The notes under the pieces are model-generated. The model made no database searches. It was given only the letters and a program-made list of their open reading frames with translations, and was not told the DNA's origin. 64,000 nt of DNA from Sphingosinicella sp. LHD-64. GTDB taxonomy: Bacteria > Pseudomonadota > Alphaproteobacteria > Sphingomonadales > Sphingomonadaceae. The position numbers were made by a program, and so were the translations under genes. Positions 20,791-25,855 of the stretch are shown here, in pieces (the stretch's first letter is position 1; every line of letters starts with the position of its first letter). The stretch is from positions 620,001-684,000 of the forward strand of contig NZ_JAVIFV010000004.1 in assembly GCF_031157375.1 (NCBI RefSeq), read 5' to 3'.

Positions 20791-20819
20791 CGTCACTCCG
20801 GATTGGATCCGGGGTGACG
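20791..20819. repeat. REP-like palindrome
   Basis: CGTCAC...GTGACG frames the inner CCGG...CCGG arms, a typical sphingomonad REP form beginning CGTCA. It lies in the 99-base gap between terL and the reversed PRC-barrel gene. Single copy here, related to the pairs at 22477-22557, 23336-23423 and 24256-24627. Confidence 0.65.
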
Positions 20820-21334: not shown

Positions 21335-22513
21335 ATGAAATGGTTTGGCCGCAAGGCCGTCCGGGAGACCGGGCGGCCGTTTCTGTTTGCGGGACTGCGC
21401 GGGCTGTTCGCCGCCGAGCCCTGGCCGCGGAGCTACGAGGCGCAGGTGCGCGAGGCCTATCTCGGCAATCCGGTGGCGCAGCGGGCGGTGCGGCTGGTGG
21501 CGGAGAGTGTGGCGGGCGCGCCGGTCTATGCGGTGGAGGGCGCCGACGTGCCGGCTGTGGCGCTGGTGACGCCGGCATTGCTGGAGACGGCGGCGACTCA
21601 GCTGCTGTTGCACGGCAATGCGTTCGTGCAGATCGTGCAGGACGGGGAAGGGCGGGCGGCGGAGCTGTTCGCGCTGCGGCCCGAGCGGGTGACAGTCGAG
21701 GCGGACGCGCACGGCTGGCCGGCGGCCTACGTCTACAAGGTCGGCCCTTCGACAGGCTCAGGACAGGTGAGGGGGAGCCGGATCGCTGCGCGCGACGGGC
21801 TGGGACGGCCGGGGCTGGTCCATGTGAAGGCGGCGCATCCGCTCGACGACCATTACGGGCTGGGGTGTCTGGGCGCGGCGGCGGGCGCGGTGGCGGTCCA
21901 CAATGCGGCGGCGACGTGGAACAAGGCGCTGCTCGACAATGCAGCGCGGCCGTCGGGGGCTTTGGTCTACGAGGCGGGCGACGGGGCGGCGCTGTCGGCT
22001 GACCAGTTCGAGCGGCTGCGCGCCGAGATGGAGACACAGTTTTCCGGGGCCGGCAATGCCGGGCGGCCGCTGCTGCTCGAGGGCGGGCTCAGATGGCAGG
22101 CGATGAGCCTGACGCCGGCGGACATGGATTTCGTCGGGCTGAAGGCGGCGGCGGCGCGCGAGATCGCGCTGGCCTTCGGCGTGCCGCCGATGCTGCTCGG
22201 GCTGCCGGGGGACTCGACCTACGCCAATTATCGCGAGGCGAACCGGGCGCTGTGGCGGCTGACCGTGCTGCCGATGGCGGAGAAAATGCTGCGCAGCATC
22301 GGTGACGCGCTGGCGGCGTGGTGGCCGGGACTGAGGCTGTCCGTCGACGTCGACCGGATCAGCGCGCTTGCCGAGGACCGGGAGCGGCTGTGGCGGCAGG
22401 TGAGCGCAGCAGATTTCCTGAGCGACGCGGAGAAACGCGAGATGCTCGGTTTCGCGCCCGGGGAGAAAACTGAATTCGTCATCCCGGCGAAAGCCGGGAT
22501 CTCAGGACAATAA
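21335..22513 (+). CDS. GTA portal protein, HK97 family (RcGTA g3 equivalent)
   Basis: 392 residues. Dodecameric ring through which DNA enters the head. PWPRSYEAQVREAYLGNPVAQRAVRLVAESVAGAPVYAV at the start and FGVPPMLLGLPGDSTYANYREANRALW later are family signatures. ATG 21335 follows ACAGGAGA. Two REP-type repeats are written into the frame: GPSTGSGQVRG at about 138-148 (bases 21745-21770), and the last residues EFVIPAKAGISGQ from the repeat at 22477. The core appears intact, so the additions are probably tolerated. Confidence 0.93.
   Translation: MKWFGRKAVRETGRPFLFAGLRGLFAAEPWPRSYEAQVREAYLGNPVAQRAVRLVAESVAGAPVYAVEGADVPAVALVTPALLETAATQLLLHGNAFVQIVQDGEGRAAELFALRPERVTVEADAHGWPAAYVYKVGPSTGSGQVRGSRIAARDGLGRPGLVHVKAAHPLDDHYGLGCLGAAAGAVAVHNAAATWNKALLDNAARPSGALVYEAGDGAALSADQFERLRAEMETQFSGAGNAGRPLLLEGGLRWQAMSLTPADMDFVGLKAAAAREIALAFGVPPMLLGLPGDSTYANYREANRALWRLTVLPMAEKMLRSIGDALAAWWPGLRLSVDVDRISALAEDRERLWRQVSAADFLSDAEKREMLGFAPGEKTEFVIPAKAGISGQ
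21745..21770. repeat. Interspersed repeat inside the portal gene
   Basis: CCCTTCGACAGGCTCAGGAC matches the common sphingomonad short interspersed repeat (a related longer form is at 28741-28792). It is read in frame as PSTGSGQ and so adds a Gly/Ser-type loop to the portal protein. Confidence 0.65.
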
Positions 22514-23335: not shown

Positions 23336-23423
23336 CGTCATGCCGGGCTTGACCCGGCATCCACCTTCTTTCAGCCAATGTGCACGAGAAGAAGGTGGAC
23401 CCCGGATCAAGTCCGGGGTGACG
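23336..23423. repeat. Inverted REP pair between protease and ppk2
   Basis: Two copies of a roughly 35-base element face each other: left from CGTCATGCCGGGCTTGACCC (23336), right ending in GGGGTGACG (23423). The inner arms CCACCTTCTT / AAGAAGGTGG are perfect. The whole can fold as a long hairpin directly upstream of ppk2. Same CGTCA-start family as the other pairs. Confidence 0.75.
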
Positions 23424-23444
23424 GCAAGAAGGGGTGGCCCGGCC

Positions 23445-24224
23445 ATGGGGAAGCTCAAGCGCAAGGAGTATGAGGCGCTGCTCGCGCCGATGAAGGAAGA
23501 GCTGATCGAGATGGCGCACTGGGTCGACGAGACCCGGCAGCGGGTCGTGATCCTCTTCGAAGGACGCGACACGGCGGGGAAGGGCGGGGCGATCCAGGCG
23601 ATCGCCGGGACGCTCAATCCGCGGCAATGCCATGTCGTGGCGCTCGCCAAGCCGACCGAGCGCGAGGCGACGCAATGGTATTTCCAGCGCTACGTCGCGC
23701 ACCTGCCGGCGAAAGGCGAGGTCACCCTGTTCGACCGCAGCTGGTACAACCGCGCCGGGGTCGAGCGGGTGATGGGCTTCTGCAGCGAGGAGCAGGCGGT
23801 GGCGTTCCTTGACACTGCGCCGGCGTTCGAGAAGCAGCTCGTCGATGACGGCATCCTGCTCTTCAAATACTGGCTGTGCTGCGACCAGGAACGCCAGGAA
23901 GAGCGGTTCGCCGAGCGGCTGAACGACCCGCTGAAGAGCTGGAAACTGTCGCCGATCGACCTCGAGGCGCGGCAGAAATACGGGGACTATACCAGGGCGC
24001 GCGAGGAGATGCTGGCGGCGACGCACAGCGACGTCGCGCCGTGGACTTTGATCGACTTCAACGACCAGAAGCTGGGGCGCCTGACGCTGATCCGGGATCT
24101 GCTCGACCGGCTGCCCGAGCTGAAGCTGCCGGCGGCGAAGGTGAGCTTCCCCGCGCTCAAGGGCAAGCCGCTCAAGGAGAAGTTCGGGGTGGTGAAGCCG
24201 ATCCCGGAGTTTCCGGTCGGCTAA
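23445..24224 (+). CDS. ppk2: Polyphosphate kinase 2 inside the GTA cluster
   Basis: 259 residues. Walker A EGRDTAGKGG (39-48), Walker B FDRSWYNRAGVERVMGF (from 96) and the lid region QERQEERFAERLNDPLKSWKLSPIDLEAR are all complete, as in class I PPK2. It phosphorylates nucleoside di- or monophosphates from polyphosphate, or the reverse. ATG 23445 is preferred: the frame continues upstream only through REP sequence. It is not a particle component in known GTAs; energising nucleotide pools during starvation-induced GTA production is only a suggestion. Confidence 0.94.
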   Translation: MGKLKRKEYEALLAPMKEELIEMAHWVDETRQRVVILFEGRDTAGKGGAIQAIAGTLNPRQCHVVALAKPTEREATQWYFQRYVAHLPAKGEVTLFDRSWYNRAGVERVMGFCSEEQAVAFLDTAPAFEKQLVDDGILLFKYWLCCDQERQEERFAERLNDPLKSWKLSPIDLEARQKYGDYTRAREEMLAATHSDVAPWTLIDFNDQKLGRLTLIRDLLDRLPELKLPAAKVSFPALKGKPLKEKFGVVKPIPEFPVG

Positions 24225-24255
24225 AGATCTAACACCGACCGGTGGACAAACTTAA

Positions 24256-24286
24256 CGTCATTCCCGCGAAGGCGGGAACCCAGCTT
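24256..24286. repeat. Left 31-bp terminal inverted repeat of the GIY-YIG unit
   Basis: Starts CGTCATTCCCGCGAAGGCGG and ends CCCAGCTT. About 26 of 31 bases match the inverted copy at 24597-24627. The inner TTCCCGC-GAAG-GCGGGAA forms its own hairpin. Confidence 0.8.
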
Positions 24287-24315
24287 TTTGGCATTTCGGT
24301 GTGGAGGAATGAGTA

Positions 24316-24594
24316 TTGAGAGGCGGTTGGGTCTACCTGTTGGCGAACCGTTATCGCGGCACGATCTACACGGGCGTCACGGCGGACTTACGCGCGCGAG
24401 TATCGCAGCATCGCGAGCGGCCCAGCGGCTTCGTTGATCGCTACCGCGTGAACCGGCTCGTTCATGTTGAGGAATATCCGACCATCGCGCGCGAGAAGGC
24501 CATCAAGAAATGGCGACGCGAGTGGAAGATCGAGCTGATCGAGCGAGACAATCGCGATTGGCTGGATCTCTATGAGCATCTCATAGGCCTGTGA
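24316..24594 (+). CDS. GIY-YIG endonuclease, UPF0213-like
   Basis: 92 residues. WVYLLANRYRGTIYTG contains the paired GIY and YIG strands (YLL at 7-9, YTG at 18-20), Arg26/28 and His32 follow, and Glu60 in ARE KAIKKWRREW is the metal-binding catalytic residue. Such stand-alone domains cut or nick structured DNA. The start is TTG 24316, with GGAGGA at 24303-24308; an ATG at 24308 is out of frame. The stop lies two bases before the right inverted repeat, so the gene fills the REP-bounded unit completely. Confidence 0.88.
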   Translation: MRGGWVYLLANRYRGTIYTGVTADLRARVSQHRERPSGFVDRYRVNRLVHVEEYPTIAREKAIKKWRREWKIELIERDNRDWLDLYEHLIGL

Positions 24595-24596
24595 AG

Positions 24597-24627
24597 AAGC
24601 TGGGCCCCCGCTTTCGCGGGGGTGACG
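24597..24627. repeat. Right 31-bp terminal inverted repeat of the GIY-YIG unit
   Basis: Starts AAGCTGGG and ends GGGGGTGACG; inverted partner of 24256-24286. Together they delimit a 372-bp unit holding only the GIY-YIG gene. Confidence 0.8.
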
Positions 24628-24674
24628 AGGAGGTGAGGCGCCTCCCGAAATGCCCGACGAATTCGAATTGCATC

Positions 24675-24703
24675 GCCCTCGCCGGGATTGGCGGGGGCTT
24701 TTT
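24675..24703 (+). terminator. Terminator-like hairpin just upstream of the capsid gene
   Basis: GCCCTCGCC / GGCGGGGGC (9 bp, one wobble) with a 6-base loop, then TTTTT. It leaves 24 bases to the capsid start, including the Shine-Dalgarno GAGGAG, so there is no room for a promoter between them. It resembles the second hairpin before the small terminase gene. Confidence 0.75.
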
Positions 24704-24727
24704 CATTTGTAGTGAGGAGACGATGAC

Positions 24728-25855
24728 ATGATCGAGGTGAAGGCGGATGCGCTGGAGGCGTCGTTCGAGGCGCTGGAGCGGGAAGCGGATGACGTCGCGG
24801 CGTTGCGCGGCGAGGTGGCGGCGCTGAAGGCGCGGGTGGAGGCGGAGGCGCTGGCGGACGCGCGGCCGGCGCTGTCCGGGGTCAAGGCGGCGAATGCCTC
24901 GCCGTTCGTCGAGCGCTATCTGCGCAAGGGGCTCGAGGCGGGGCTGGAGCTGAAGGCATTGTCCGGCGCGAGCGATGCGGCGGGCGGCTATGCGGTGCCG
25001 GAGGAGATCGACGCGGCGATCGAGCGGACGCTCGCGGCGGTCTCGCCGATCCGGGCCATCGCCAATGTCGTGAAGGTGGGATCGAGCGGCTATCGCAAGC
25101 TCGTCACCTCGGGCGGCACGCCGTCAGGCTGGGCGAGCGAGACGGGGGCGCGGGCCGAGACGGCGACGCCGACCTTCAACGAGATCGCGCCGCCGTTCGG
25201 CGACCTCTACGCCAATCCGGCGGCGAGCCAGGCGATGCTCGACGACGCGGCGTTCGATGTCGAGGCGTGGCTGGCCAACGAGATCGCGATGGAGTTCGCG
25301 CGGGCCGAGGGTGCGGCGTTCATCTCGGGCAACGGGACGAACAAGCCGCGCGGCTTCCTCGCCGCGCCCAATGCGGCGACGGCGGACGGGGTGCGGCCGT
25401 TCGGGACGCTGCAATTCCTCACCACGGGGGTCGCCGGCAATTTCCCGGCGAGCAACCCGCAGGACAAATTGATCGACCTCGTCCAGGCGCTGCGCTCACC
25501 CTACCGACAGGGCGCGGCGTTCGTGATGAACTCGGCGACCGCGGCGCGGATCCGCAAGTTCAAGACGTCGGACGGCGCGTTCATCTGGCAGCCTGGGCTG
25601 GTGGCGGGACAGCCCGATACCCTGCTCGGCTATCCGGTGGTGGAGGCCGAGGACATGCCGGACGTGGCGGCGGATTCGCTGTCGGTCGCGTTCGGCAATT
25701 TCCGGGCGGGTTACCTGATCGCCGAGCGGGGCGAGACGCAGATCCTGCGCGACCCCTTCACCAACAAGCCATTCGTCCACTTCTACGCGACGCGGCGGGT
25801 CGGCGGGCAGGTGATGAACTCCGAGGCGATCAAGCTGCTGAAGTTCGCGGTCTAG
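24728..25855 (+). CDS. GTA major capsid protein, HK97 fold (RcGTA g5 equivalent)
   Basis: 375 residues. An N-terminal coiled-coil delta/scaffold segment (about 1-60, rich in Glu/Ala) is removed by the prohead protease. The HK97 core follows: AAGGYAVPEEIDAAIERTL, the E-loop, GNGTNKPRGFL, DTLLGYPVV and the C-terminal LRDPFTNKPFVHFYATRRVGG strand. ATG 24728 follows GAGGAG. A hairpin with U-run lies upstream and a 14-bp-stem hairpin directly downstream, so expression of this abundant protein may be tuned separately. Confidence 0.95.
   Translation: MIEVKADALEASFEALEREADDVAALRGEVAALKARVEAEALADARPALSGVKAANASPFVERYLRKGLEAGLELKALSGASDAAGGYAVPEEIDAAIERTLAAVSPIRAIANVVKVGSSGYRKLVTSGGTPSGWASETGARAETATPTFNEIAPPFGDLYANPAASQAMLDDAAFDVEAWLANEIAMEFARAEGAAFISGNGTNKPRGFLAAPNAATADGVRPFGTLQFLTTGVAGNFPASNPQDKLIDLVQALRSPYRQGAAFVMNSATAARIRKFKTSDGAFIWQPGLVAGQPDTLLGYPVVEAEDMPDVAADSLSVAFGNFRAGYLIAERGETQILRDPFTNKPFVHFYATRRVGGQVMNSEAIKLLKFAV

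Follow-up and report, generated by a model that had tools for sequence, protein, structure and literature searches.

A pair of inverted CGTC-class REPs and the small GIY-YIG nuclease gene enclosed by them form one co-evolving unit, which is found across many genomes. The original prediction was made for a single copy in the window (the whole stretch of 64,000 nucleotides of Sphingosinicella sp. LHD-64 analysed here), and described a REP element carrying its own nuclease, similar to REP/RAYT systems but with another class of enzyme. This description is strongly supported, and as a general one, by the flanking of homologous genes, the matching of REP types within genomes, the REP numbers of genomes with and without the nuclease, and a residue of the enzyme that tracks the class of REP. 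The features of the window copy and the other CGTC sequences near it are as follows.

24256–24289, forward strand: left CGTC-class REP CGTCATTCCCGCGAAGGCGGGAACCCAG with matched inner tail, tag outward (inverted-pair search, pattern match, ssDNA fold)
24303–24311, forward strand: ribosome-site-like GGAGG and an ATG whose frame differs from that of the nuclease (read from the sequence)
24316–24594, forward strand: GIY-YIG nuclease, 92 codons, TTG start (ORF list, Pfam match)
24594–24627, reverse strand: right CGTC-class REP CGTCACCCCCGCGAAAGCGGGGGCCCAG with matched inner tail, tag outward (inverted-pair search, type pattern, ssDNA fold)
23336–23364, forward strand: GGGCTTGACCC-type CGTC REP forming the first arm of a dimer without a gene, which overlaps the ppk2 ORF at its start
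23395–23423, reverse strand: second arm of the gene-less dimer at the ppk2 start, tags outward (also at G000:C4:643398)
22477–22504, forward strand: solo CGTC REP at the end of the portal ORF, with which it overlaps
20791–20819, no strand assigned: palindrome of 29 bp, CGTC-tagged at each end, of the same form as the collapsed palindromes of empty sites

The two arms are 34 nt long and 82% complementary, being the longest inverted pair listed for positions 23800–25200. Each of them folds as single-stranded DNA into a hairpin with a 7-bp stem and a 4-nt loop (−8.4 and −10.2 kcal/mol, z about −3), and carries an outward CGTC tag and a CCCAG tail. A 22-base pattern of the REP has one match in the window, namely the left arm, with 0.02 expected. 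The sole gene between the arms is the TTG-started frame of 92 codons (Pfam GIY-YIG, E = 9.5e-10), the stop of which ends 2 bases ahead of the 31-bp right repeat originally described. Both the inverted REP pair around the gene and the nuclease as the only content of the unit, as had been proposed, are confirmed. The last codons of the portal ORF are supplied by the CGTC REP at its 3′ end (22477–22504).

All of the near-invariant residues Y7, Y18, G20, R28, H32, E60, K64, W66, R68, W70, K71, N79, W82 and D84 are present in the window protein. When 184 sequences are aligned, four residues immediately ahead of the catalytic Glu (E60) and one near residue 34 are missing from the window copy. Because these four residues are missing and the ATG lies out of frame, the window copy may be decaying, and is probably ageing. 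The predicted models have a pLDDT of 95.7 for L002, a paralogue in the same genome, and 91.3 for the window protein. The closest solved structures by sequence profile are the UPF0213 proteins 1zg2 (2.6e-8) and 1ywl (3.2e-6), and 1zg2 is also the sole fold match at E ≤ 0.001 (5.7e-4, TM 0.57), followed by Slx1 entries at 0.013 and weaker. NCBIfam gave no name for the window protein; 21 of 61 members of the nuclease family matched group I intron endonucleases weakly, with none of the matches shown lying above a cut-off. A defence-gene reading was rejected, as the PADLOC matches were only weak (best 2.2e-4), and so was carriage by phages, as 50,697 phage records gave no tblastn match at E ≤ 1e-5.

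Five GIY-YIG places were found in the genome at E ≤ 0.001 (L001–L005). L001 is the window copy; L002, L003 and L004 are its paralogues at 57, 53 and 51% identity, and L005 is more distant (39%). An inverted repeat pair surrounds all five, with scores from 18 to 38.5 and differing sequences: L001 and L004 are flanked by the TTCCCGCG type, L002 by TGCCAGCG, L003 by a mixture, and L005 by another repeat. L004 is frameshifted, and L002, of the CCAGC stem type, appears to be an intact resident copy. The distant gene at L005:1430–1830 lies between copies of a different inverted repeat, TTCCCGAGCGAAGTCGAGGGA; therefore, the association of repeat and nuclease may extend beyond this clade. With up to two mismatches allowed, a 26-base pattern of the window REP matches the genome at 16 places, some of which have another stem base; its reversed control matches nowhere. 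The patterns of the three REP types gave 12 (stricter stem-C), 106 and 6 matches, the 106 being those of the CCAGC stem type, with several subtypes pooled. Among 33 CCAGC REPs listed, all nine close neighbour pairs have their tags outward, which is the same layout without the gene.

The set of homologous loci was made up of the best 80 of 538 hits from genome contigs, 29 loci of the family and 80 further listed family hits, giving 194 loci with the five above, of which 191 were distinct and 185 usable. A homologue at E ≤ 1e-8 is present in 80 of the 119 genomes of the family sample. With an inverted pair counted at a score of at least 14, such a pair flanks 148 of the 185 homologous genes, whereas it was found around 5 of 327 neighbouring ORFs and in 5 of 602 displaced windows; the remaining 37 genes have no clear pair. 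The search for flanking repeats around homologues, which the original prediction had suggested as a check on itself, thus leaves the idea unrefuted. Of the 148 pairs, 121 have an outward-pointing tag on the left arm and 5 only an inward one; in 22 the direction is unclear.

The ends of the unit were examined in a profile of 127 of these pairs (21 were skipped). It was aligned on the tag, so that the identity of the tag letters is built in, and what informs is how near to chance the arms are outside and by how much they exceed swapped partners inside. Outside the tag, arm-to-arm identity is 0.20–0.47, which is near chance (0.24–0.37 for swapped partners); inside, it is high to about +29, fades by about +35, and exceeds that of swapped partners to about +34. 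At the variable stem base, +10, identity is 0.98 within a copy but 0.27 with swapped partners. Arm similarity stops at the tag over the 127 pairs, but the recent copies in two genomes (G067 and G106) share some 10–50 bp beyond their tags, by which the mobile ends are blurred there. The eight bases outside the CGTC tag at these 127 loci are poor in G (7–15%) and rich in C and T, possibly a preference in the site of insertion.

With L002 as the query, 50 of 144 genomes sampled from the class contain a homologue, as do 84 of 249 sampled from the phylum. A further 125 loci were taken from these two samples and from plasmids, at least four of them being additional family loci, and 120 of the 125 were new and usable. 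At these loci, mostly outside the family, a pair is present in 80 of 120, and only 50 of the 80 have the tag on the left arm. By eye, a plasmid copy of the nuclease in Rhizobium tumorigenes (L231:1331–1952) has no CGTC REP within 170 bp on either side.

Where a genome has several nucleases, most of them are flanked by a matched REP pair of their own. In the 27 genomes with at least two copies (84 copies), the two arms of a copy match in 73 of 84 cases, compared with 56 of 242 for arms swapped within the same genome, and the copy's own right flank is strictly the best in 61 of the 73, with about 22.5 expected. Paralogues less than 65% identical share a REP type in 10 of 103 pairs, whereas all 18 pairs above 65% (18 of 18) do so, 16 of them being recent duplicates within G067 and G106.

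Four REP classes were defined over 120 loci, with C, A or T at the variable stem position or with a CTTGA-type loop, and 7 of 127 loci remained unclassed. A scan of all alignment columns for association with REP class brought out residue 70 of L002 (K65 of the window protein), which stands beside an invariant Trp, five residues after the catalytic Glu. This residue is Lys in 32 of 32 stem-C units, Ala in 35 of 36 stem-A units, Lys in 9 of 11 stem-T units, and Arg or Asn in 35 of 41 units with the CTTGA loop. Using only relatives less than 55% identical, it alone predicts the REP class at 98 of 120 loci, the same loci on which it was chosen, compared with 44 for the next best column and 9.5 for the median column; the top 30 of 4186 column pairs all contain it. 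In phylogenetically independent pairs taken from one FastTree tree, residue 70 differs in 8 of 15 pairs of different class versus 6 of 31 of the same class (p = 0.038), the largest excess in class-different pairs of any column.

For held-out loci, with the rule fixed before scoring, the prediction was right in 23 of 34 cases, versus 20 of 34 by guessing the majority class. Without one unit of an unmodelled class, the figure is 23 of 33, where 14.1 are expected and 2 in 10,000 shuffles did as well, and without three near-identical plasmid copies it is 21 of 30. The link between residue and REP holds, with the simple rule weaker in the held-out loci; a universal one-residue code is too simple, since 10 of the 33 held-out units miss. 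The Neisseria homologue has Lys at the place of residue 70 and lies beside TTCCCGC repeats, as expected from the rule, with the repeats arranged differently.

The three REP types were also counted in 118 genomes of the family, where the reversed-pattern control gave 0 in every row. The median number of REPs is 18 in the 79 genomes with the nuclease versus 1 in the 39 without, and at least ten REPs are present in 51 of 79 versus 5 of 39 without a detected nuclease. The p-values of these counts are optimistic since genomes share ancestry, although 91 genera were sampled. None of the three types occurs in eight nuclease-carrying genomes. A match to the Y1 transposase domain of RAYTs (Y1_Tnp, PF01797) was found in 22 of the 118 genomes and not in the genome of the window; REP number is unrelated to its presence (medians 12 and 8, p = 0.28), and 33 of the 42 genomes with at least 20 REPs have no such match. 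REP number hence follows the presence of the nuclease and not that of RAYT, and RAYT was rejected as the mobiliser on the missing match in the window's own genome and the missing correlation in the family.

In the sections of Di Nocera et al. 2013 (PMC3733652) drawn on here, CGTC REPs are described by a CGTC tag, a stem of 8–9 bp, a loop of 4–5 nt and a CCA-like tail, and as multi-copy sequences, mostly of alphaproteobacteria, the majority of which occur as head-to-head dimers. The same sections report no dedicated transposase for them and, for the species listed, no case of CGTC sequences flanking a tyrosine transposase gene. The window REPs show the tag, a 4-nt loop and a CCCA tail, with 7 paired bases, one below the published 8, and the multiple copies and outward-facing close pairs of the same genome agree with this superfamily as well; here, a GIY-YIG gene lies inside the dimer. 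REP/RAYT systems are the closest precedent in working, with an enzyme gene flanked by palindromes that are probably processed, lineage-specific repeats, and many gene-less dimers. Different from them, where an HUH Y1 enzyme (PF01797) goes with GTAG REPs, the present units combine a PF01541 GIY-YIG enzyme with CGTC REPs, and membership of the REP/RAYT group fails on the enzyme. Among the papers listed by the literature searches, often a portion of those matching and with most subscription papers outside the collection, no link between GIY-YIG genes and REPs was found. One paper containing both 'repetitive extragenic palindrom' and 'GIY-YIG' mentions them separately, and the portions of PMC1564403, PMC12306157 and PMC6006769 considered hold no such link.

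Five copies 96–99% identical are present in G067 and four copies 82–99% identical in G106, with differing outer flanks. In G067, the sequence shared beyond the tags runs into another dispersed repeat (GTCGGGAAAGCGGACATTC ... GTCCGCAATGTCGG); the nuclease units there (L117, L118) are located within this repeat or next to it, and L248 is a diverged copy of it that has no unit. The original prediction had pointed to empty sites as a further check, and these do exist on plasmids, so that the idea is not refuted here either. At the fnrL site of Sphingobium plasmids, seven records carry the unit and four are empty; of these four, two retain a gene-less 29-bp palindrome composed of the two tags, and two have other repeats. 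On a plasmid of Azospirillum lipoferum, the unit and REP dimers lie between sufB and sufC, where the four relatives examined have neither the gene nor a CGTC REP. In Sinorhizobium meliloti Ak57, an intact unit adjoins an internally deleted one between the same REPs (L230:1100–1501), and two relatives examined keep the collapsed palindrome; the deleted remnant is possibly a step from the unit to a gene-less repeat. By eye, filled and empty flanks are too different for a target-site duplication to be read. Close copies scattered through a genome and the presence/absence polymorphism fit mobility, and transposition may underlie them. Since many units, among the matches listed, occupy sites conserved between genomes, the unit moves rarely and its gene is mostly passed on by descent, as is the case for RAYTs.

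What kind of system could account for these units? The reading that we hold to be probable is a 'nuclease REPtron', in which a GIY-YIG gene has matched inverted CGTC REPs as its ends and recognition sites. The nuclease would recognise its own REP as a hairpin or as an exposed single strand, e.g. at replication forks, and would nick it, and the repair or copying of the hairpin-bounded segment could then spread the unit. Internal deletion would give gene-less REP dimers and 29-bp double-tagged palindromes, and these derivatives, presumably still targets of the enzyme, would make up much of the CGTC REPs of the genome. The window copy would be one such unit, probably an ageing one, in a GTA cluster. 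GIY-YIG enzymes are hydrolytic and are not known to have a joining activity, which counts against this reading.

In a wider form, to which we lean only slightly, CGTC REPs at large are the ends and gene-less derivatives of REP-specific GIY-YIG nuclease units; the enzyme is unrelated to RAYT, a residue at the side of the active site sets the palindrome that is read, and enzyme and repeat diversify together. The GIY-YIG nuclease is a leading candidate for the missing partner of the CGTC REP class. This names a testable enzyme for repeats that the 2013 survey left without one, offers a candidate reason for the abundance of CGTC palindromes in alphaproteobacteria, and points to an origin of REP systems with two unrelated classes of enzyme. 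It also provides a natural set of nucleases of about 90 residues, for which the flanking DNA and, to some extent, a single residue may allow the sequence preference to be guessed.

Other explanations have to be weighed against the nuclease REPtron. It is conceivable, though rather doubtful to us, that the protein is an Ssn-type single-strand endonuclease policing or tuning DNA uptake and recombination, with the REPs as its targets, and that gene and REPs move by homologous exchange at REPs (cassette exchange) and not by transposition. Ssn proteins are likewise small GIY-YIG proteins and the closest precedent for the enzyme; the family is said to cut single-stranded DNA, reportedly in a Nature Communications article of 2025, which may have reported part of the present findings. 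The Neisseria gonorrhoeae homologue, 49% identical to the window protein, is presumably SsnA, and SsnA is reportedly a sequence-specific ssDNA nuclease. Cassette exchange would also suit the Sphingobium site, where the unit is replaced on some plasmids by a collapsed palindrome and on others by different repeats. The gonococcal gene lies among dRS3-like repeats, and the dRS3 of Neisseria are classed as CGTC-1 REPs in the sections of PMC3733652 drawn on. However, the close copies in G067 and G106 are dispersed and differ in their outer flanks, and the four empty Azospirillum sites examined offer no CGTC REP to recombine with.

The same four sites argue against a homing endonuclease whose gene has been inserted into its own recognition site, with the REPs as the split site. 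We regard this as unlikely: the fold is a GIY-YIG one, and the collapsed palindromes at the same position in relatives (two sites) could be uninterrupted sites, but a complete REP and not a half-site stands on each side, and REPs elsewhere stay intact in nuclease-carrying genomes. It is very improbable that RAYT transposases mobilise the CGTC REPs with the nuclease as a passenger, since the known precedent of REP/RAYT is set against the Y1_Tnp results and the report on CGTC-flanked tyrosine transposase genes given above. That intergenic REPs are simply common and happen to flank the gene can be practically dismissed; several other CGTC REPs do occur in the window, yet the contrast between homologues and neighbouring ORFs and the matching of types within genomes exclude chance flanking by background REPs.

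The site of the window copy was also compared with that of relatives. The ppk2 gene (23340–24224) is located inside the GTA cluster between protease and capsid, and its ORF start overlaps the gene-less CGTC REP dimer. Neither ppk2 nor the nuclease is present in any of 29 capsid loci of relatives, and the protease lies 19–338 bp ahead of the capsid gene in 23 of the 29, versus 1409 bp here. The original prediction had taken other GTA clusters to have no such unit at this point, but the junction minus the nuclease alone was not seen; because ppk2 and the nuclease are both extra here, the window site is not a clean empty-site comparison. Of the proposed mobile REP unit, the wide recurrence of a REP–nuclease unit is borne out, but mobility of the window copy, as originally stated, is not supported, and its gene looks partly decayed. 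In three close relatives (L196, L200 and L202), no protease lies within reach and the gap ahead of the capsid gene holds other sequence, and L199 carries a solo CGTC REP there; the gap appears to be prone to insertion.
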